Below are positions 7,653 to 24,211 of a stretch of 30,868 nucleotides of DNA, piece after piece. Location: the NCBI GenBank assembly GCA_001910725.1, contig MJGA01000105.1:1-30868 (forward strand), read 5' to 3'. This DNA comes from Phanerodontia chrysosporium (Eukaryota > Basidiomycota > Agaricomycetes > Polyporales > Phanerochaetaceae). The notes beneath the pieces were generated by a model. The model ran no database searches. It was not told where the DNA came from and saw only the letters and a list, made by a program, of their open reading frames with translations. Positions within the stretch are counted from its first letter, which is position 1. Every line of letters starts with the position of its first letter. Position numbers and translations under genes: made by a program.

Positions 7653-9368
7653 TTAATCATCTTCACTTTGGTCGTCATCCCCTTCCCATTCGACTGGCTC
7701 TCCATCCCATTCGAACTCTTCGACGTATTTCTCGAGGGCATCGAGGTTGCCAGGAACCTTGCGACATTGAAGCAGGACGAGCCTGCGCAGATTGTGATCG
7801 CCTTCCTTGCGCATGCGTAGGACAGAGGACAGGAATCCAAGGGGACCATGGTCTTCGGCGGAATCATTCTCCAATGGCGTTTGCTGCTCATGGCGGGCTT
7901 GCGCAGGCGAGAAATCGAACCCGCGAACCACCAGTGTCTCCAGCTTGGGGAACAAGGTGAAATCCCCGGGCCACTTGCGCCGGAGAGCATGCAAGAGATG
8001 GCCGGTGACGCGTCCAGAGATGTAGAGGGTTGTGACCTCGACGAGATGGCGGAATCCGAGGACGAGGGCCCAGGATGTGAGCAGCTCAGCCGAAGGCCAC
8101 TCGTTCTCGATAGCAAATGTCCGTACCGACGACAAAGACGGGACGTGCTTCCAACATATGAACATATCTATGAGTTCGCTCTGGTCGGCACGCCACTGCA
8201 ACTGGAAGCTTGGAGGCCGGACTTGAGTGAGGGCTGGGATAGCGAGACCGGCCAAATCCTCTTCGCTCAGAACTGAACTCCACCCAAGTAACTCGGGAAT
8301 CAGCATAGGAAGTTGAGGCCTCGAGGCCCACTCGCGAGCGTCAAAATGAGCTAAGTTGAAGAAAAGTGTCTGAAGTGGAGGGGCAGGTCCGATGCACGTC
8401 TCTCCGGACAGCCTTCGAGACACAAAGGAGGTTGTGTTGTGCAGTTCGTAGTCGGGGCCGCCGACGAACCTGCTGTCCATCATATTTGTGAGATCAAGCT
8501 GTTCAGAATAGCGGACAGAGAATCTGCAACTGTGGGGCGTGTGGAGATTTCCTAGGAAAAGCGAGGTCCCTCGGCCGGGCCAATCAGACAGGAGGGTGAC
8601 CGATTGGAGGCGTGGGAGGGCAATCGTGCGCCATGAAGACTCGGGCTCGGGGCGATTAGTATTGAAAGCGTCTTCGATGGTGAGCCTTTTCAGATTTGGA
8701 AGACCAGCCAATGCGTCGAGTAACATCGAGTACGTTGTTGAGGAGTCCATATGAAGTCGATGAAGGGACAGAAATCTCAACGACGGCTGCAGCAAGGGCA
8801 CGACAGCGCGGAGCGTGAACAGGAGCGTATTCAAACTTCGCAGGGAAGGTAGTTCGAGAGGTATGATTTGAGGCATAGAAGGCCACGGATGCGTTGCAGA
8901 TCTCAGTTCGAGAGCTCGAATGTTCGGGAGCGACATTTTGCTGGCCTCGCTAGTGATCATCAAGTCCCGTGCGACGACAGTCAGACTCAGTGAGTGGATC
9001 CGGCTGGACGTCGACAGCAATGGCGTCCAGAGAGCATACGGGTCTTGCAATGCGTCGTTGTCAAAGTTCACCTCGGTCTGCACCTGTAACGGCCTCGGAC
9101 GAGATCTGTCGAGGAGCATGGTCATGAATTCCGGAGATGGGGTCCGTATGTCTGTCCAAAGATCAAGTGTGTGTATAGCGACCTCCCTCCATCGGTGGCA
9201 AACGTGTGAAACCCGCATCCATTGGTAGCAAGGGGTGCCGTCCGGCGGCTGAACGTCACAATTATCTTCGCTGTCGGGAAACGAGCAAATCCTTATCAGG
9301 CCTGACAGCCTCTGACGAGCCTGAGGAGACCTGAAAACCCGGCGCTCACCTGGCTCGTCGGAGGACAC
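7653..9368 (-). CDS. F-box-like protein with C-terminal leucine-rich region, 5' end unresolved
   Basis: A long minus-strand frame of about 570 codons ending at 7653. Near its N-terminus it carries YQWMRVSHVCHRWREVAI followed by TLDLWTDI. This is the second half of the F-box-like domain common in mushroom genomes, which binds Skp1 in SCF ubiquitin ligases. The remainder has irregular leucine-rich segments that would bind substrate, and it ends in an acidic tail (GDDDQSEDD). The usual first helix (LPxELLxxIF) is absent. The first in-frame codon at 9366-9368 is GTG, not ATG, and an in-frame stop lies shortly upstream, so this is not the true start. Either a 5' exon lies further right, with a splice acceptor near 9290-9345, or the gene lost its 5' end. 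The first true in-frame ATG is the Met of QWMRV. Substrate unknown. Confidence 0.72.
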   Translation of the reverse strand: MSSDEPGERRVFRSPQARQRLSGLIRICSFPDSEDNCDVQPPDGTPCYQWMRVSHVCHRWREVAIHTLDLWTDIRTPSPEFMTMLLDRSRPRPLQVQTEVNFDNDALQDPYALWTPLLSTSSRIHSLSLTVVARDLMITSEASKMSLPNIRALELRSATHPWPSMPQIIPLELPSLRSLNTLLFTLRAVVPLLQPSLRFLSLHRLHMDSSTTYSMLLDALAGLPNLKRLTIEDAFNTNRPEPESSWRTIALPRLQSVTLLSDWPGRGTSLFLGNLHTPHSCRFSVRYSEQLDLTNMMDSRFVGGPDYELHNTTSFVSRRLSGETCIGPAPPLQTLFFNLAHFDAREWASRPQLPMLIPELLGWSSVLSEEDLAGLAIPALTQVRPPSFQLQWRADQSELIDMFICWKHVPSLSSVRTFAIENEWPSAELLTSWALVLGFRHLVEVTTLYISGRVTGHLLHALRRKWPGDFTLFPKLETLVVRGFDFSPAQARHEQQTPLENDSAEDHGPLGFLSSVLRMRKEGDHNLRRLVLLQCRKVPGNLDALEKYVEEFEWDGEPVEWEGDDDQSEDD

Positions 9369-9706
9369 CGGCGCTAAGCTGGCAGACCCTTCGCGAAAGT
9401 TGTGATGTCATAGACAGGTCCATAGGTCGTCAGTGCGCGGATATTCATGAAAGCAACTTGGACTAATGGATAAAGCGTGTGTGTGAGATGTGAACTAGCC
9501 ACCGTGCCGGGGGATCGAGTCATGACACCGCCTAGTATGAGACTGAGCCTGAGTATTATTTGTCTAAGAGTCTCCTGATAATGGCTGAAGCGTAGTAATT
9601 CGACATGGATCATCATGTGCCCGAGTAGTAACTAGGCTAAGTAGTGTAGTTACAATGTATGTAAGGTTGAGTTGACTGCTCCTGTCCGCCGGGGTAGTAA
9701 GCCAAA
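9369..9706. other. Spacer between F-box-like gene and retrotransposon
   Basis: Expected to contain the promoter or missing first exon of the minus-strand F-box-like gene. I read the minus strand for an F-box start motif and found none. The last bases before the LTR are CCAAA (9702-9706), the expected left target-site sequence of element I. Confidence 0.4.
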
Positions 9707-10176
9707 TGTCACGGATGTAACGGTGCTGCCCTATTTTTCGCCGATTTTTGGCCATTTTCCTCGATTAATCCAACGGGCGAGCAGTCCTCGCGCCGTCTGG
9801 AGTCCTAGCCGCCCACACTCAGCGCCTGGCCACTCAGCGCCAGCGCCCTGATGGCGCATCACCCCTAGACGCCAGCGCATCCCGCTGCGCGCTCAAACAC
9901 TGCCCGGATCACCGGTCTGCCTTGCAACCGGTTCCCTGGATCACCGAGGAGGCACTGTCATCCCTGATGACTCCCCTTACCGAGACACGCCGAGCTGATC
10001 AGCCTGATGACACAGCCTCGGCCCGACGCAGCCTCGAGACACTGCCAGCTGACACAGCCTCGTGACATAGCCCCAGCACAGCCTCGCCGCGCAGCCCGCG
10101 TCGCAGCCTCGCTGGCTATGCTGAGCGCTGCCCATCAGCTTATGTAATCATATAGCCTGCCCTAAAGGACCTGTAG

Positions 10177-10184
10177 TATATAAG
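10177..10184 (+). promoter_or_regulatory. TATA box of element I 5' LTR
   Basis: TATATAAG, 34 nt (start to start) upstream of the sequence ATCTCGACCT that the primer-binding site complements. The same box sits at the same distance (17127-17134 to 17161) in the 3' LTR. This conserved spacing supports 10211 as the transcript 5' end. Confidence 0.75.
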
Positions 10185-10210
10185 GGTAGCTCCCCTTGCT
10201 CCTGTCCGTC

Positions 10211-10220
10211 ATCTCGACCT
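10211..10220 (+). promoter_or_regulatory. Predicted mRNA 5' end / self-primer sequence
   Basis: ATCTCGACCT is the exact reverse complement of 10404-10413 just after the LTR. In Tf1/sushi-type elements the first 11 or so nucleotides of the mRNA fold back on the primer-binding site and are cleaved to prime reverse transcription. The TATA spacing agrees with transcription starting here. Inferred from sequence only. Confidence 0.65.
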
Positions 10221-10238
10221 CTTGGTCAATACGGACAG

Positions 10239-10298
10239 GTAAGCCCGATGTTTGTATTGTAGTTACAGTGCTAATATTATCTTGGTCAATACGGACAG
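10239..10298 (+). other. Intron-like segment within the LTR leader, bounded by 18-bp direct repeats
   Basis: The repeat CTTGGTCAATACGGACAG occurs at 10221-10238 and again at 10281-10298. The first copy is followed directly by GTAAGC, a good 5' splice site; the second ends in ACAG, a good 3' splice site. CTAAT at 10271-10275 is a plausible branch point. Splicing would remove the spacer plus exactly one repeat copy. The segment also contains the only ATG between the predicted transcript start and gag (10248, a four-codon frame ending at TAG 10260-10262). The 3' LTR has the same arrangement (17189-17247). Confidence 0.6.
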
Positions 10299-10403
10299 CT
10301 GCATAAGTTGTGCGTCGCTGCGTGACTCGCTCCGCCGCGCCTCGTCGTCGACCTCCCCACTTGCCCTCCCTCGTGAAGCGTTGAGCCCTAGCTCCGCGAC
10401 ATT

Positions 10404-10413
10404 AGGTCGAGAT
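10404..10413 (+). other. Primer-binding site, self-priming type
   Basis: AGGTCGAGAT begins two bases after the LTR end and is a perfect 10-nt complement to 10211-10220. The pairing stops exactly at both ends (flanking bases do not match). I saw no obvious complement to a tRNA 3' end, which would normally show TGG near this point. Confidence 0.68.
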
Positions 10414-10555
10414 CTTTTGGGTGCCCTAGGCATTTTTCCCCTACTGCTCCCCACAAATACCGTTTAAAAAAGTTTATCCCCACCGTTTAAAGCGAGTACG
10501 TCGTAGTCGAGCAGCCCGCTCACTCCGTACACGTTGCTAAGGTCCTTGCTTTGCA

Positions 10556-11245
10556 GTGCCGAAAGACGTCCGGCTCAAGGATCACATCCCCCAGCGCATC
10601 TTCGACCGCCTCCAACGTCGTCGCGAGGCCGGTAACCCCGTCAAGTGGACGGACCGCAAAGTCAAGGCAGTTGTCAAGTACGTGTCCACGCTCCCCCAAC
10701 CTCCGCCCTCTGTCCCCTCCATCAACTGGACTGCCGTTCACGAGGCTCGTGAGGCCGAACAACGCGTAGGCAACCGCATCCGCGAGCAGCGCCAGCGCGA
10801 GGCCCAAGAAGCCCAGGCCGCCGTAGCCGCCTCCTCCTCGAAGCTCAGTTTGGCAGAACGCCTCAGTGCCGCCCCAACGTACGAGCCCATTGCCCGCAAG
10901 CCCGTCGGCATCGACATCCCCAAGTACTCTCCCACCGACCTTGTCGGCATCTTCACGCCTAAGCTCGACGCCACCATCAAGCGTCTCAAAGCCGTCGAGG
11001 AAGTCGACTTGCTCCACATCGTCAACAGCGACCACGCCCACCACTTCCGCCTCCTGCTCGAGCGACTTCGCCAAATCTGCGCCGAGCTCAGCCGTCTCGC
11101 CCCCACCATCACGTTTAAGGAGTGGCACCAATACGAGCTTGGTCTCGCTCAAGTTGGTGACATTTCGTTCATCGGTTTAAGGCGAAACTTCCGCCGTATC
11201 GTAAGACAGCTGAACATTGTGTACGAGGCTGGCTATTTTGATTAG
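10556..11245 (+). CDS. Methionine-free upstream ORF of element I, unknown function
   Basis: A 229-codon open frame between LTR and gag, ending in TAG at 11243-11245. I do not recognise it. It looks coding: codons mostly end in C or G, the composition is protein-like, an Arg/Glu/Gln-rich region suggests a coiled coil (residues ~62-85), and the C-terminal half has regular hydrophobic spacing (HFRLLLERLRQICAELSRL). Its first candidate codon is GTG within GCAGTGCCG; an in-frame TAA lies a few codons upstream. It contains no internal Met at all. No ATG exists upstream in the leader to supply a start by splicing, apart from the short frame inside the LTR intron-like segment. Either it starts at a non-AUG codon, or an ATG mutated to GTG in this copy. 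Its position before gag is unusual for gypsy elements. Confidence 0.6.
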   Translation: MPKDVRLKDHIPQRIFDRLQRRREAGNPVKWTDRKVKAVVKYVSTLPQPPPSVPSINWTAVHEAREAEQRVGNRIREQRQREAQEAQAAVAASSSKLSLAERLSAAPTYEPIARKPVGIDIPKYSPTDLVGIFTPKLDATIKRLKAVEEVDLLHIVNSDHAHHFRLLLERLRQICAELSRLAPTITFKEWHQYELGLAQVGDISFIGLRRNFRRIVRQLNIVYEAGYFD

Positions 11246-11669
11246 TTTATAAAATACATCTCGTGTCACTCTGGATTCCGATTGCTCGAATCGACCGCAC
11301 TTCTTTGCGCGAAACCTCGAGGACCATACAGTTTGCGATTTTCACCTCATCGATCGAGGGGAAAACTGGCAATTCGTTCCCTGTGACGAACAACCCTGTC
11401 CACATCGAGAAAGCGCTCCAGCGGCCCCGCAACTCCCGCCGAACACTTGAGAAACCCAATTCGAGCACCCTCGTTTCGCGCAACGGCTAGAATTTGCCCG
11501 CGCTTCCGCCACCACTCCGAATACTCCCGACCGCAGTCCCCCGGACAGCAGCCACCACTCGTCTCCCGAGACATCGCTCGGCTCCGTCCTCTCCGATCAC
11601 GAACCCGCTCCTTCCCCGTTTAACCTCTCCCGCGCTCACTCAGGAGCCAATACTCCCTGTCCCCCCAAT

Positions 11670-12920
11670 ATGTCGAGCACTCCCGGAGGAGCGCCGCCCG
11701 GTCCGGCGCCTCCCGACCCCGTCTCTGCCGCCCTTCTGCAAATGGCCCAGGCCATGACGCAGCTCACCAACACAGTCAATACTCTGGCCCAGACTATTGG
11801 TGCCAATCGGACAACGGTCAACGCTACGGTCAACGCCAACAAGGAACTGCCCTTCGTCGAGAAGCCCGTCCCATTCAAGGGTAAGGGCTCTGACACGGCC
11901 CGTCTCTTCCGCGCCGCCTACCGCATCTACGCCGATGGGCAACCGGAGAAGTTCGGCAAGCGCGACGTCAACGGCAACCTCGAACGCGACCCCAACACCG
12001 GACAGATCATGGTAGACGGCCAGAAGTGGATCGTTGGCGCCCTCTCCTTCATGCAGGACGAAGCCGCTGAATGGGCACGGCAGTACATCGAGCAAGCGGC
12101 AGACGGCACTCAGTTGTTCGGAGGTTCCCGCGCCCAATTCTGGGAGGCTTTCAAGAACCGGTTCGAGCCCGTCGACGAGAAGGCCGAGGCCCTCAGCAAA
12201 CTACAGGCGTGCACGCAAGGCAATCGTCGGTTCGCGGAGTTCTTTGCGGAGTTCCAAGCCCTCGCCGGCCGCACGAAGCTCACCCCGGAAGACCTGGCAG
12301 CCCGGCTACGGACGAAGTTTAATAAGGACTACCTCGAACGGATCTCGTACATGGTCAACCCCGCTACTGGCAAAGGCCCCGAGACGTACGACGAGCTCAA
12401 GAACGCGGGTTTCGCCGTCGACCAGTCGAAGGACAAGCTCTCGCAAGACCTCTTGGCACAGCAAGGCAAGACGTCCTCGACTCCGGCTAGCTCGTCAGCG
12501 CGCGCCTTCCGCGACCCGAACGCGATGGACATTGACGCCGCGAACATTGACGAGCTGTTTAAGGGTCTCACTGGCACGGATCTCAAGTGCCAGTTCGACG
12601 CCGTCATGAAGGATCGCTGCAAGGTCTGCAGCTCGAAGTCCCACAAGTCCACGGACCCCGTTCACCGTGATTCGGTCTGCAACCACTGCGGCAAGAAAGG
12701 TCACTGGTCCCGCGTCTGTCGTGCCCGCCTCGAGGGCAAGCCAAAAACCGCCCCCGCTACCGCCGCCGTTCGCGCCACGTCTTCGGATACCTCGTCTCAG
12801 GACTCCTCGTCTCCGACCTCCTCGTCTTCTGGCAGCTCGTCTGACGACCAAGCTGCCGCGCTCGCCGCCCTCCGTGATCAGCTGGCCCTGATACAGAAGC
12901 AGCTTAGGGGTTTTGCTTAA
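11670..12920 (+). CDS. Gag polyprotein of element I
   Basis: A 416-residue structural protein that packages element RNA into virus-like particles. The start ATG at 11670 has A at -3 and is the first ATG of the predicted spliced mRNA. The N-terminus is Pro/Gly-rich with a short helical stretch (LLQMAQAMTQLTNTVNTLAQ). It is followed by the capsid-like helical region typical of gypsy Gag (for example EAAEWARQYIE, FWEAFKNRFEP, RFAEFFAEFQALAG). Near residue 330 is one zinc knuckle, CNHCGKKGHWSRVC (C-X2-C-X4-H-X4-C), which binds RNA; an additional CKVC...H pair precedes it. The tail is Ser-rich. The frame is intact, unlike pol. It ends at TAA 12918-12920, within a -1 frameshift context. Confidence 0.92.
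   Translation: MSSTPGGAPPGPAPPDPVSAALLQMAQAMTQLTNTVNTLAQTIGANRTTVNATVNANKELPFVEKPVPFKGKGSDTARLFRAAYRIYADGQPEKFGKRDVNGNLERDPNTGQIMVDGQKWIVGALSFMQDEAAEWARQYIEQAADGTQLFGGSRAQFWEAFKNRFEPVDEKAEALSKLQACTQGNRRFAEFFAEFQALAGRTKLTPEDLAARLRTKFNKDYLERISYMVNPATGKGPETYDELKNAGFAVDQSKDKLSQDLLAQQGKTSSTPASSSARAFRDPNAMDIDAANIDELFKGLTGTDLKCQFDAVMKDRCKVCSSKSHKSTDPVHRDSVCNHCGKKGHWSRVCRARLEGKPKTAPATAAVRATSSDTSSQDSSSPTSSSSGSSSDDQAAALAALRDQLALIQKQLRGFA
12908..12914 (+). promoter_or_regulatory. Programmed -1 ribosomal frameshift slippery site (gag-pol)
   Basis: GGGTTTT reads G GGT TTT in the gag frame, fitting the X XXY YYZ rule. It is one codon before the gag stop (TAA 12918-12920). In the -1 frame a TAG at 12905-12907 abuts the heptamer on the left, and the frame is then open for more than 130 codons into the protease. 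So the only window where gag and pol can be joined by -1 slippage is 12908-12917, and it contains this heptamer. The pol frame has no ATG before the protease domain, which fits synthesis only as a Gag-Pol fusion. Confidence 0.75.
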
Positions 12921-12981
12921 GGGGCCGGAGTGACGCCGCATCGTCGGTCCCCGTTTCGTCAAGCCCGGATTCAACTCCGGC
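12921..12981 (+). other. Predicted RNA structure stimulating the frameshift
   Basis: Two alternative stems begin 6-9 nt after the slippery site. GCCGGAGT (12924-12931) pairs perfectly with ACTCCGGC (12974-12981), and inside that loop GACG (12932-12935) pairs with CGTC (12942-12945). Alternatively GGGGCC (12921-12926) pairs with GGTCCCC (12946-12952) with one bulge. The spacer length is right for -1 frameshifting. Structure is by eye; no folding energy was computed. Confidence 0.5.
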
Positions 12982-15900
12982 GCCTTCGCTAGAACCGCAG
13001 GACATTTCTGATACCATCCGCTCGTGTACTATATCAGTGTTAGATCCGTTTTCAAATCATTACCGTGTACCAGTAAAGCTCACCGGAATCAATAAAACTA
13101 TTCGCACTCCCGCAATGATTGACTCCGGTGCAACCTCGCTGTTCATCCACGAGGATTTCTGTAAGCAGCACAAGATCCTCACGGTACCGCTCAAGAAGGA
13201 GATCACACTGTACAACATCGACGGAACTAAGAATGAAGCAGGGTCTATCACACGCCGTGCCATACTCCAGCTCACTGTGGGTTCTTACACGTTTAAGGAG
13301 GAGTTTCTTGTCACGAACATCGGTCCGAGAACGTCATCCTTGGACTTCCGTGGCTCAAGAAATGGAATCCGAACATCGACTGGGAAACGGGAGATGTCCA
13401 GTTTCAGCTCCGCGGCGGAGCTGAGGACACCCCGGTTTTCGGTATCCATCAGATTGACGCCAACCGCTCCGAACGCCGTGAATGGCTTCGAGCAGGCGTT
13501 GTTGAGGATGCCAAAGACGAAGTCTGGATCCTCGCCGGCTACACTTACTCGCAAGCGATCGCTGTCGAAGCCAATCGCGAGAAGTACGCCAAGACGTTGA
13601 AGAGCTGGTTCCCAAGGAGTACCACCGACACAAGAAGGTGTTCTCCAAGAAGAATCGCACCGCCTTCCGAAGCATCAGCCCTGGGATCACGCGATAGATC
13701 TCGTTCCGGACGCCCCGGCTCGATCAAATCGAAGGTTTACTCCCATGTCCCCGATCGAGAATGAAGAACTACAGCGGTTCATCGACGACGCACTCGCCAA
13801 GGGCTATATCGTCCCCAGCAAGTCTCCGATCGCTTCCCCTGTCTTCTTCATCAAGAAAAAGGACGGCAAGCTCCGGTTCATCAGGATTACCGCAAGCTCA
13901 ACGACATCACGTGAAGAATCGCTACCCCCTTCCGCTCGCCTCCGACATCATCGGGAAGCTCCAGGGCGCTAAGATCTTCACCAAGTTCGACGTCCGTTGG
14001 GGCTACAACAACGTCCGGATTAAGGAAGGTGACGAGTGGAAAGCCGCCTTCGTCACCAACCGCGGTCTCTTCGACCCGAGTCATGTACTTCGGTCTGTGC
14101 AACAGCCCTGCCACGTTCCAGGCCCTCATGAAACATCTTCGCCGACCTCATCGCGAAAGCAAGGTCGCAGTCTACCTCGACGACATCTCATCTGGTCGAA
14201 CGATCTCGCTTCGCATCGGAAGATTGTTCACGAGGTCCTGGCACGCCTCGCCAAGTACGATCTGTACCTTCGGCCCGAGAAGTGCGAGTTCGAGCGCTCA
14301 GAGATCGAGTATCTTGGGCTCCTCATCAGCGAAGGACAAGTCGGCATGGACCCGGCAAGGTTAAGGCAGTAGCCGAGTGGCCGACCCCGAAGAACCTCAA
14401 AGACGTACGAGGCTTTGTCGGGTTCGCCAACTTCTATCGCCGTTTCATCAAGACTTCTCAAAGATCTGCCGCCGCTGCACGATCTGACGAAGAAGGATAC
14501 TCCGTTTAATTGGGGTCCCGCACAGGCAGAAGCCTTCGAGACGCTCAAGCGCGCTTTCACGACTCAGCCCGTGCTCGCCATGTGGAGCATTGATCGGCCA
14601 ACTCGCGTCGAGACCGATGCTTCTGGCTACGCCACCGGAGGAGTCATAGCCCAACGCAACCCTGAAGATGGTCTCTGGCATCCAATCGCGTATCGCTCGC
14701 AGACCATGAGCCCGCCGAGCGGAACTACGAGATCTGGGACCGTGAGATGCTTGCAATCATCGAAGCTCTCAAGGACTGGCGCCAGTTCCTCGAAGGTCTC
14801 CCGGAGCCTTTTGAGATCTGGACCGATCATCAGAATCTCCAGTACTGGAAGACTGCGCAGAATCTCACGCGCACAAGCCCGTGGGCCTCCTACCTCGCCG
14901 AGTACGACTTCCGCATCATCCACCGCCCGGCAAGACCATCTCCTCGCTGATCCGCTCTCCCGGCCCTCCTCGCTGCATGTCTCCGACGAAGAAGACAATC
15001 GCTCGCAGGTAGTATTGAAGCCAGAGCTGTTTAAGATAGCCGCCACGGCAGCTTCGCAAACCCCTCCCCCTCGAGAAGCGCATTCGCGACTGCTCCGAAA
15101 AGGAAAAGGAAGTCGCAGACGCCCTGCAGACTCTCCGGACCAAGGGGCCCCGCAAGCTGCGCAACGGCGTTCTCGAATGGGAAGAGGCAAGGCCTTCTGT
15201 ACTACCATGGGAAAGTCTATGTCCCGAACAGTGCCGCGCTGCGCAACGACGTCATCAAGTCTTGCCACGACGCGCCGACCGCCGGACACCCTGGGAAGCA
15301 CACCACCTCGAATTGGTCTCTCGGTACTATTGGTGGCCGCGCATCTCCGCCGACGTTGCCGCTACGTGCTCGGCTGCGATCATGTCAACGGTACAAGTCC
15401 GCCCCGCATCCGAAAGCCACCCTACAGCCCCACGACGTCCCTTCAGGGCCTTGGGAACACGTCGGCGTGGATCTCATCACGCAACTCCCACGCGACGCCA
15501 AGACCAAGAAGGACTCGATCGCGGTCTACGTGGACCACTATTCGGATCAGTGCCACCTTGTGCCGGTCGACTCGACGATCACCGCTGCCGGCATGGGCGA
15601 CGTCCACTACACGGACATCTTCCGCCTCCACGGCCTCCCGCAAGATCTTCTCCGATCGTGGACCCCAGTTTGCAGCCCAGTACATGCGAGCGCTGTAAAC
15701 GCCTCGGCATCGCTACCGGTCTCACCACGGCATATCACCCGAAGGCAACGGCAAGGTCGAGCGCAAGAACCAGGAAGTCGAGAAATTCCTGCGTCTCTTC
15801 GTCTCCCAGCGCCAAGATGACTGGGTCGATTGGCTCCCGATGGCCGAGTTCACCCTGAACTCACACGTGTCTAGTGCTACCGAGCGCACGCCCTTCGAGA

Positions 15901-16657
15901 TTGTTACGGCTAACACCGGACTTCACGATCCCGGCCGGCAAACACACCAAGGTTCCCGCTCTCGATGAGCGCCTAGACCGCATGGCTCACGTTCGCAAAG
16001 AGGCCGAAGCTGCCCTGCGCCTAACCAAAGCCCGCATGAAAGAAGAGTACGAGGCCGCGAAGAAACGCGCCCACTCCTTCAAAGTCGGCGATCAGGTTTG
16101 GCTCAGCACGAAGGACCTCAGCATCGATCAGCCTCGCCCAAGCTCGGCCCCCGCCAGCTGGGTCCGTTTAAGGTTCTGGAAAAGATCGGCGATCTGGACT
16201 ATCGGCTCGAGCTCCCGAGCTGGCTGAAAATCCACCCGGTTTTCCATGTCAACCGCCTCAGCCCGTGGCACGATCAGGGCGTCGAGAAGCCTCTGCCTCC
16301 CAAACCTGTCAAGGTTGCCGGCGAAGAAGAATACGTCGTCGAGAAGTCCTCGACAGCCGCATATACCGCCGCCAACTGCAGTACAAGGTCCGCTGGAAAG
16401 GCTACGGCCAAGCCGGCGACACGTGGGAAAAGGCAGACAACCTCAAGCACGCCAAGGCCCTGGTCAACAAATTCCATCGCGAAAATCCGGAAGCGCCCCG
16501 CAAGCTCGCTGCCACCGCCTTCGAAGCCCTCGCCGCCTCTTTTCGCCCGTTCGTCACCGAAGTCGACGTCTCCCACTTTCTGCCTCCGATCGCGCTAAGC
16601 CGATCTCGATGGGAGGAGGGGCGCCACATCTACGACCTCGCGAGGACGCTCGGTTTT

Positions 16658-16667
16658 AGGAGGGGGG
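16658..16667 (+). other. Polypurine tract of element I
   Basis: AGGAGGGGGG followed by TAA and the 3' LTR start TGTCACGG. It is the plus-strand DNA primer for reverse transcription. It also lies inside the last codons of the pol frame. Confidence 0.85.
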
Positions 16668-16670
16668 TAA

Positions 16671-17350
16671 TGTCACGGATGTGACGGTGCGCCTATTTTT
16701 CGCCGATTTTTGGCTATTTTCCTCGATTAATCCAACGGGCGAGCAGCCCTCGCCCGTCTGGAGTCCTAGCCGCCACACTAGCGCCTGGCCATCAGCGCCA
16801 GCGCCCTGATGGCGCATCACCCTAGACGCCAGCGCATCCCGCTGCGCGCTCAGACACTGCCCGGATCACCGGTCTGCCTTGCAACCGGTTCCCCGGATCG
16901 CCGAAGGGCACTGTCATCCTGATGACTCCCTCGCCGAGACACGCCGAGCTGATCAGCCTGATGACACAGCCTCGGCCCGACAAGCCTGAACACTGCCAGC
17001 TGACACAGCCTCGTGACATAGCCCCGCACAGCCTCGCCGCGCAGCCCGCGTCGCAGCCTCGCTGGCTATGCTGAGCACTGCCCATCAGCTTAGGTAATCG
17101 TATAGCCTGCCCTAAAGACTCTGTAGTATATAAGGGTAGCACTCTTCGCTCCTGTCCGTCATCTCGACCTCTTGGTCAATACGGACAGGTAAGCCGCACT
17201 TTGTATTCTTTACTATCTCTCAATAATAACTTGGTCAATACGGACAGCTGTACAAGTTTGTTCGTCGCGCGTAACACGCTCCGCTGCGCCTCGTCGTCGA
17301 CCTCCCCATTCGCCCTCCCTCGTGTAGCGTTGAGCCTCTGCTCCGCGACA
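16671..17350 (+). repeat. 3' LTR of element I
   Basis: A 680-bp copy of 9707-10401, 15 bp shorter, with many substitutions and mostly single-base gaps (for example CACCCCTAG versus CACCCTAG, CATCCCTG versus CATCCTG). TATA box 17127-17134, ATCTCGACCT 17161-17170, and 18-bp repeats at 17171-17188 and 17230-17247 are all retained. Ends GCGACA at 17350. The second CAGCCTCG motif is lost here. Confidence 0.93.
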
Positions 17351-17454
17351 GATTTTCTCAATGACCTGTAGCGGATCTCTGCATCCTACAGGTTAATAAT
17401 GCTGATTATGTACCCACAGCCGAGTTTACACTGGATGTAGATAGAGTAATTGAC

Positions 17455-21913: not shown

Positions 21914-22423
21914 TGTCACAATTTTTTAATTCCCTATGGTTTCATTCTCGTAAGTGCCCTATAGGCGCTAGGGTTAGGGTTATGAACTAGGGTTAGGACA
22001 GGCACGTGTCTGAACATGGTCACGTGTTGGTCACGTGCTGGGAATTGACTCAGAGTCATGTGAGGATCTTATCTTTATCTTATCAATGATGTAGATGCTC
22101 TGATACAAGGGTATAGTAGGTAGCCAGATCTAGGGTCTGGATAGTGTATTCTAGAATAGTGTAAAGGTTCCGGACACATACGGTACTCGACTTTAGACTT
22201 TGCCAAGTTTGGAGTGTCTTGGCAAGTATTGCACCATCATCACGCCATCGACAGTATCAAGAGTCTCGGATAGTACCAGGGTCCTCCCCTTCATGTATAT
22301 ATACCAGGCTCTGCTGGGCTTAAGTCCCCAGCATCATTTACCTCGTCTACCACCACTTTACTCTCGCAGTCAAGTCTCACCCCACCAAAGCTACTAAAGT
22401 AAGTAGCAGGGTTTACTTTGACA
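21914..22423 (+). repeat. 3' LTR of element II
   Basis: Starts TGTCACAATT and probably ends CTTTGACA, giving TGTCA/TGACA inverted ends and a length of about 510 bp. U3 holds TTAGGG-like units (about 21969-21998) and three CACGTG palindromes (22003, 22021, 22032). A TATATATA box near 22293 marks the promoter. The 3' boundary is inferred from the end motif only, as no second copy is present for comparison. Confidence 0.7.
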
Positions 22424-22554: not shown

Positions 22555-22676
22555 GTGACAAACACGTGACTGCGTTCTGACACGTGCATGTCCTAACCCT
22601 AGTCCATAACCCTAACCCCTAGTACCTATTGGGCACTTACAAGAATAAAACCGTAGGGAATTGGAAAACTGTGACA
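22555..22676 (-). repeat. Inverted fragment of the element II LTR
   Basis: Read on the minus strand from 22676, the sequence TGTCACAGTTTTCCAATTCC then TAAGTGCCCAATAGG, TTAGGGTTATGGACTAGGG and CACGTG matches the start of the 21914 LTR with scattered substitutions for about 120 bp. The match then stops where another TGTCACAGTTTTTTTGTC begins (minus strand from about 22561). A third similar start, TGTTACAGTTTTTTGTCTC, lies on the minus strand near 22821. This is a cluster of broken related LTRs. Confidence 0.72.
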
Positions 22677-23269: not shown

Positions 23270-24211
23270 CAAACTGAAATCACCAACAAACTTGGTGTAC
23301 ACTGCTCACAAATCTCCTGCATCATCCCAAAGCTTCATGAAGAAACAATAACTACAATGTCAACAAGAAGCCAGGTCACCCACGTGTTTTCGATGACCGT
23401 GATCTCCGTCGTGCGAGTCGTGCAATCACAAGCGGCGAGTGCGCAGACGCTACGAGGTTTGACACACTCTATTCCCCAGTCTCAGTCCGAACTGTCCAAC
23501 GTGAACTCTCAAGCATTGGTCTGAAGGGTCGCATTCGTCGTACCAAGCCCTTCTTCGTTCTATTACATAATAAAGCGGCGAATGTGGAGAAGACACATCG
23601 CAGGATGGAGATGGAGAAGTGGAAGACGGTTATCTTTTCTGATGAGTCCAAGTACAATCTTTTTGGCTCAGATGGCAAGCAATACTGTCAGAGGAGGGTA
23701 GGAGAGGAGTTTCTACCACGGAATCTCAAAAAGGTGGTGAAATACGGGGGAGGAAGTATAATGGTATGGGGATGTATAAGCTGGAAGGGTATTGGGAGGC
23801 TGCATCGAGTGGATAGGAATATGACGGCAGCCTCATACTGCAAGATTCTCAAAGAGTCCTACCTTGGCTCTCTAGAAGACCTTGGTTACCACACAAAGCA
23901 GTCATATTCCAGCAGGACAATGACCCGAAACACTGCAAAGTGCACAAGGCGATGGTTTGAAGACAATAACGTTGAATTGCTCCCCTGGCCACCCTCTTCC
24001 CTGACATGAATATCATAGAGCATGTCTGGTGGCACCTGGAAATCCTTGTCAACCGGCGCAACCCCGTCCACGCAATCTAGATGAGTTGTGGTGTGCATTG
24101 CGGGAGGAGTGGGAAGCGCTGGATATACAATTTATTTGCAGGCTGTACAGGTCTATTCCACGTCGTTTGCAGGCCCTTAGGGATGCCAAGGGCCAGTACA
24201 CTAAGTACTAA
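23270..24211 (+). pseudogene. Tc1-type transposase, frameshifted
   Basis: Cut-and-paste transposase of the DD34E class. A helix-turn-helix remnant (EITNKLGVHCSQISCIIPKL) begins near 23276. The catalytic core shows VIFSDESKYNLFGSDGK (first Asp) in the frame 23584-24009, followed by GGGSIMVWGCISWKGIG. FQQDNDPKHCKVH (second Asp, 23916-23918) then appears in a shifted frame, and PDMNIIEHVWWHLE (Glu, 24018-24020) in another. The second Asp and Glu are 102 nt apart, as expected for DD34E. The C-terminus (RSIPRRLQALRDAKGQYTKY) ends at 24211. At least three frame breaks, so no autonomous function. Confidence 0.88.

Follow-up and report, generated by a model that had tools for sequence, protein, structure and literature searches.

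The retrotransposon Tf1 is laid out as a single ORF, and the plant elements of the Ogre/Tat group carry an extra ORF upstream of gag and undergo splicing within the element. Other relevant strategies are known from viruses and a host gene. In rice tungro bacilliform virus (RTBV), leaky scanning extends over 900 nt, aided by ORFs I and II being free of internal AUGs, and the first long ORF has a non-AUG start, AUU (PMC5902531). The glycoGag of murine leukaemia virus is described as beginning at an in-frame CUG in the context accCUGg upstream of the gag AUG (PMC5778647), and its extension as comprising 88 residues (PMC5120145). In yeast GCR1, spliced and unspliced RNAs use different start codons; this is a host gene, and both AUGs are described as present in the DNA, with none assembled across the junction (PMC7826247). 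A 2010 survey of fungal gypsy elements records that some carry an additional ORF whose function is unknown, and the available part of its text makes no mention of an AUG-free leader or a splice-made start (PMC2864245).

Here we describe a 7.6-kb LTR retrotransposon that occupies part of a 30,868-nt stretch of Phanerodontia chrysosporium DNA (contig MJGA01000105.1, positions 1 to 30,868; hereafter the window). RTBV is the nearest system in layout: as in that virus, no AUG occurs from the start of the leader to the main AUG, the ATGs of a predicted LTR intron excepted. The initial annotation of this DNA had likened the leader to the AUG-poor, leaky-scanning RNA of RTBV, and our analysis supports the likeness. 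However, RTBV is a plant pararetrovirus that reaches its first start via a ribosome shunt, whereas the present case is an LTR retrotransposon in which about 1.4 kb would be scanned and the start of the first protein is probably made by splicing. For a second feature, an N-terminal extension of Gag, glycoGag is nearest; here too an in-frame CUG in good context, the putative initiation site, is followed by a conserved coding extension. This extension is 133–135 residues long and the context of its CUG is mostly gcuCUGg; the likeness drawn here is one of layout and CUG.

Two properties recall Tf1/sushi elements: the putative RNA 5′ end is complementary to sequence just after the LTR in 60 of 60 copies, and the element has a Tf2-1-like integrase SH3 domain and a chromodomain. 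It differs from them in that gag and pol are separate and a −1 slippery site is present, in its two predicted leader introns and in an ORF before gag, which we term ORF1. The likeness to Ogre/Tat, as those plant elements are generally described, is one of layout. A literature search returned no account of the combination of an AUG-free leader, a splice-made AUG and a CUG-extended Gag.

Anatomy of the element and its copies

The element lies on the plus strand between a 5′ LTR (9707–10401, TG...CA) and a 3′ LTR (16671–17350), which are identical at 637 of 700 positions (91%). By eye, the sequences flanking the two LTRs, 9697–9706 and 17351–17360, show no matching target-site duplication. The gag gene (11670–12920) begins at the first AUG of the leader and encodes 416 aa with a Retrotrans_gag match (3.9e-09); a CCHC zinc knuckle is matched weakly, below the cut-off. 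Its ATG is kept in 40/40 aligned copies, its pairwise dN/dS among these is 0.094, and copies with all 416 codons contain 7–9 methionines. Just before the gag stop stands a GGGTTTT heptamer (12908–12914), found in 39/40 copies and not matched in the remaining one. Pol is open in the −1 frame relative to gag, and −1 frameshifting at this slippery sequence is likely.

In the window copy pol (12908–16684) is broken and split over several frames; it comprises protease, RT, RNase H, integrase parts and a chromodomain, recognized by Pfam searches with the separate pieces. RVT_1, RNase H, SH3_Tf2-1, Integrase_p58_C and Chromo were above the cut-off, the protease and Integrase_H2C2 fell below it, and no Pfam match to the integrase core was found in these broken pieces. 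These pol matches, among them RT, RNase H, the Tf2-1-like SH3 domain and the chromodomain, place the element among the chromoviruses: judged by its LTRs, its gag, the PR-RT-RH-INT order and the chromodomain after the integrase, it is a multicopy Ty3/gypsy chromovirus.

For comparison within the genome, 400 candidates yielded 40 DNA matches with a score, one of them the window copy (W), and we aligned all 40. A second subfamily, in which ORF1 is 12 codons longer, was represented by 20 copies that were read; two of the first 40 (L025 and L039) also carry the longer form. These 60 copies are not independent, since they are best matches and several look near-identical. A search with an ORF1 relative gave 147 matches in the genome that carries the window, fragments included.

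A putative self-priming site and a predicted intron in the LTR

The first ten bases of the proposed RNA, ATCTCGACCT (10211–10220), are the reverse complement of a primer-binding site, AGGTCGAGAT (10404–10413), that lies two bases past the 5′ LTR. Both sequences occur in 60/60 copies, with 10/10 bases complementary, and it is from this complementarity that we infer an RNA start at about 10211. A TATA-like box (10177–10185) lies 34 nt upstream of that point, and the putative exon 1 (10211–10238) has a diversity of 0.0 among aligned copies. The arrangement is probably a self-priming site of the Tf1/sushi type.

Exon 1 is followed by a predicted LTR intron (10239–10298, GTAAGC..CTAAT..ACAG) with a donor diversity of 0.0 and a body diversity of 0.32. 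The end of exon 1 recurs in the last 18 nt of this intron, with a repeated ACAG end. This intron contains 35 ATGs in 57 copies; part of them fall in the branch-like motif, which may itself favour some of these ATGs. Its tolerance of AUG makes removal of this intron from both of the mRNAs proposed below probable. Separately, nine perfect intronless LTR sites (compare 10221–10298) were found among 316 sites matched at ≤2 mismatches; they include both LTRs of the L027 copy. Such sites are what one would predict had reverse transcription used spliced RNA or involved a template jump.

AUG is depleted from the putative RNA start to gag

The initial annotation had reported that no ATG occurs on the plus strand in 10299–11669. 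This is correct, and none begins anywhere in 10249–11669; the nearest ATGs on either side stand at 10248, within the predicted LTR intron, and at 11670, the start of gag. The resulting gap of 1,422 bases is the longest on either strand of the window, the next longest being 509 on the plus strand and the maximum on the minus strand 393. The early expectation of about 15 ATGs for 10299–11669 was too high, as we compute 12.9 from base composition or 8.0 from dinucleotides. The minus strand of the same interval carries 22 ATGs; CAT is therefore common in the leader, and base composition is not the cause of the deficit.

In the window copy the deficit is mostly one of missing methionine. With the proteins and codons of this copy held fixed, the expected number of out-of-frame ATGs is 1.5 for ORF1 (P 0.11) and 1.3 for the gag extension (P 0.20), and with so few expected a single copy constitutes modest evidence of purging.

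The copies taken together are more telling. Of the 40 aligned copies, 27 have no ATG in 10299–11669 and 13 have one. These fall at 12 sites, 11 of them private to one copy and none shared by five or more; for the other five orders of A, T and G, 55 of 185 sites are private (Fisher P=3e-5). In the second subfamily no ATG was found between the primer site and gag in 18/18 measurable copies, the other two of the 20 not being measurable by the pattern used. We also counted ATG gains by single changes from the window copy, per opportunity, and ranked all 64 trinucleotides. In the leader ATG was gained at 8 of 6,091 opportunities, against 138 expected at the mean rate; this is 17-fold below the mean and makes ATG the rarest of the 64. 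The corresponding count in gag was 84 of 5,567 against 122 expected, and ATG was not the rarest trinucleotide there. Gains were also few in U3 (5 of 2,020, rank 6 of 64). ATG density, by comparison, is 5.5 per 501 bases per copy in U3 and 6.9 in the first 501 bases of gag, so that the depletion extends over the RNA from its inferred start as far as the gag AUG, the LTR intron excepted.

Two low-scoring copies picked as decayed carry more ATGs, 13 in L076 and 10 in L077, over the stretch bounded by the positions at which the primer site and the gag AUG would be expected, and show what can happen without selection. By eye, these two copies also display many Arg-to-Cys/His-like changes along with the ATG gains, suggestive of C-to-T decay.

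By comparison of the copies, then, AUG is purged from the leader. The earlier proposal that it is selected against in all frames draws support from the copies without any ATG (27/40 and 18/18), and the scattered ATGs that might have been found in other copies are nearly absent. An origin by chance, or by mutational bias within a family that amplified recently, could be argued from the near-identity of some copies and from single-copy synonymous tests, which are weak (P 0.04–0.33 across 11 copies). Against this stand the 17-fold shortage of ATG gains, the ATGs held by the decayed L076 and L077, and nine ORF1 relatives from other sources, 47–76% identical, that have no internal methionine; we regard this explanation as largely refuted already and scarcely credible.

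An IRES or shunt in the leader, with the absence of AUG as a by-product of RNA structure or base composition, also appears very unlikely. The leader is long and conserved, and a block at 10487–10541 is conserved beyond its splice motifs. However, ATG stands out among the 64 trinucleotides for its extreme depletion, which the other strand does not share. Two coding regions, an exon and the leader intron are affected but the LTR intron is not, and an IRES would not need AUG depletion.

ORF1 encodes a conserved methionine-free protein

The frame at 10556–11242 was confirmed as 229 codons counted from a GTG, free of methionine and followed by the stop TAG at 11243–11245. We delimit ORF1 as 10557–11245 (plus strand), that is, a basic, Met-free protein of 229 residues after a putative split start codon, A^UG, plus the stop. 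Among the copies its length ranges from 229 to 241 residues; its pI is 9.9 and its C-terminal part is predicted to be helical.

The suggestion that this frame encodes an unknown protein is borne out by its conservation. Pairwise dN/dS among the 40 copies is 0.145, below 1, in the ORF1 frame and 1.6 and 2.3 in the other two frames; across ORF1, the gag extension and gag, wrong frames give at least 1.49. In-frame ATGs are nearly missing from other copies as well, with 3 methionines in 13,374 codons of 58 copies. No Pfam family matched ORF1 above the cut-off, and a fold search gave no convincing match. A collection of 5.8 billion proteins yielded 13 relatives. Nine of the 13, those with 47–76% identity, start exactly at MPKD and contain no other methionine. 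Of the remaining four, P0010 and P0012 begin elsewhere and have zero methionines, while P0011 and P0013 have one each; P0011, a Phanerochaete carnosa protein, is the sole named relative, is 39% identical and differs at its N terminus. Gene callers write M for GTG as well, and the initial M of the relatives consequently places the start but is not proof of an ATG. The ORF1 family, which has no recognized relatives, may be missed or truncated by ATG-based gene finding.

A predicted leader intron would create the ORF1 start codon

With few exceptions, the head of ORF1 reads AAAGCGA^GTACGT ... TTGCTRAGG ... [CT]AG^TGCC in the copies. We interpret this as a predicted exon 2 (10299–10495), whose final A would begin the ORF1 start codon, followed by a predicted leader intron of 59–61 nt (10496–10556, GTACGT..CTRA..[CT]AG). 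Exon 2 holds 1 ATG in 11,251 bases of 57 copies. The donor A^GTACGT is present in 40/40 aligned copies and TG follows the AG in 39/40, the exception being L046; in the second subfamily A^GT and AG^TG occur in 20/20. CTRA stands 18–20 nt before the intron end, and the tract between it and the AG is variable. A GT donor, a branch motif and an AG acceptor are thus conserved between copies at the spacing of fungal introns. Splicing at these motifs is predicted: removal of 10496–10556 would join A10495 to TG10557 and give AUG CCG AAA GAC, which is possible in 59/60 copies.

Over 57 copies the leader intron has 2 ATGs, and the LTR intron, of similar length, has 35. This pattern is consistent with translated RNA having lost the LTR intron and the gag mRNA having kept the leader intron. 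The joined A^TG sequence had no genomic copy at ≤2 mismatches.

The initial annotation had taken the GTG at 10556 as the ORF1 start codon, used on unspliced RNA while most ribosomes leak past it towards gag, much as in RTBV; with the extension described below, ribosomes that leak past would reach the CUG and the AUG. This proposal accords with the AUG-free leader, with the lack of any in-frame ATG if no splicing occurs, and with the presence of GTG in 59/60 copies. But a better reading of the GTG in these 59 copies is the end of a 3′ splice site, CAG, with TG after it, and AG^TG fully accounts for the triplet. GUG is a weak start codon, and the +4 base here is C. A GUG start also does not predict the A^GTACGT found in 40/40 copies 61 nt upstream or the CTRA 20 nt upstream, and we consider it unlikely. 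The alternative offered at the time, an original ATG at 10556 mutated in the window copy, is not borne out, as an unspliced ATG stands at this position in 0/60 copies, with GTG in 59 and GGG in L046.

For the splice-made start we add one qualification: the donor sits in a block that is conserved throughout, and its conservation alone is therefore not specific to splicing. The 5′ half of the leader intron is also conserved (diversity 0.05), and the intron may have a second role, for example in packaging. The block itself, at about 10487–10541, extends beyond the splice motifs and could be a packaging or regulatory RNA signal.

A conserved coding extension of gag begins near a CUG

Upstream of the gag AUG and in its frame we found a Met-free extension of 133–135 codons (11271–11669, plus strand) that was absent from the initial annotation, as was the CUG at its head. 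Its dN/dS is 0.26 overall and about 0.10 in the last 200 bases (40 copies, pairwise), and by this comparison the extension is coding. In the window copy it is interrupted by a TGA at 11448–11450.

The codon at 11271–11273 is a candidate start of a long Gag. It is CTG in 58 of 59 copies and TTG in one, and all 59 carry a purine at −3 together with G at +4. From this CTG gag is reached in frame without a stop in 51 of 58 copies; in the other seven the extension is broken by a stop (W, L012 and L046) or a frameshift (L036, L041, L061 and L065). Within the first 50 codons of the extension, every other in-frame near-cognate codon occurs in 30 of 59 copies or fewer. An invariant CTG is not special per se: near-invariance is shown by 29 of 48 columns of conserved Leu codons. 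Coding-like conservation is already present at about 11271 and has no sharp onset at the CTG, because the two preceding codons are conserved too (Val 56/59, Ala 57/59). The CUG is thus conserved, and initiation at it is our interpretation of its position and context.

As an alternative to CUG initiation, a further splice or a frameshift could fuse ORF1 and the extension into an ORF1-Gag polyprotein, which would make a CUG start unneeded. The CUG lies only about 25 nt past the ORF1 stop, and in some copies of the second subfamily the gag frame overlaps the end of ORF1, being open for 171 codons in five (L066, L069, L070, L072 and L073) and for 152 codons upstream of gag in one further copy. In the aligned set, however, the open gag frame reaches no more than 143 codons upstream of gag in 40/40 copies, all of which close it at or after the last ORF1 codons and leave no overlap to slip in. 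Nor does the interval from the ORF1 stop to 11320 contain an AG conserved in at least 30 of the 40 copies, although coding-like conservation has set in by about 11271. We judge such a polyprotein improbable and retain the CUG as the candidate start.

A model for two RNAs from one promoter

Taken together, we consider it likely that the leader is a device of expression control in which a spliced RNA would yield ORF1, an intron-retaining RNA would yield CUG-initiated Gag and Gag, and AUG is purged. One promoter would give rise to two RNAs. ORF1 would be made from the RNA lacking the 59–61 nt leader intron, with its AUG formed where A10495 meets TG10557. On the intron-retaining RNA ribosomes would meet no AUG for 1.4 kb and scan through; some would start at the CUG at 11271 and produce a Gag extended by about 133 residues, and most would reach the AUG at 11670 and produce Gag. 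The GGGTTTT before the gag stop would then place pol in the −1 frame and give Gag-Pol. Any AUG would stop scanning ribosomes, which would explain its purging from the whole retained leader in all frames. In this scheme the transcript start, both splicing events, the use of CUG, the switch between the two RNAs and the function of ORF1 are predictions from the sequence.

With a confidence somewhat above even, we propose further that intron retention acts as a translational switch: splicing would assemble the AUG of the accessory protein, and retention would direct synthesis of Gag and CUG-Gag across 1.4 kb of purged sequence that includes two coding regions. ORF1 might feed back on the splicing or packaging of its own RNA. 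If the model is true, a single LTR retrotransposon RNA brings together splicing, non-AUG initiation, leaky scanning and frameshifting, a compact natural case in which selection on each mechanism is readable from many genomic copies, and selection in a fungus can maintain scanning over 1.4 kb.

Sequences around the element

Three further features were observed outside the element in the window. A long ORF on the minus strand (7653–9407) with an F-box-like match just below the cut-off adjoins the element. An ORF at 23341–24009 has a weak match, also below the cut-off, to a Tc3-like transposase HTH. Finally, 64-nt inverted repeats at 21971–22034 and 22555–22618, 520 nt apart, may delimit a small DNA transposon.
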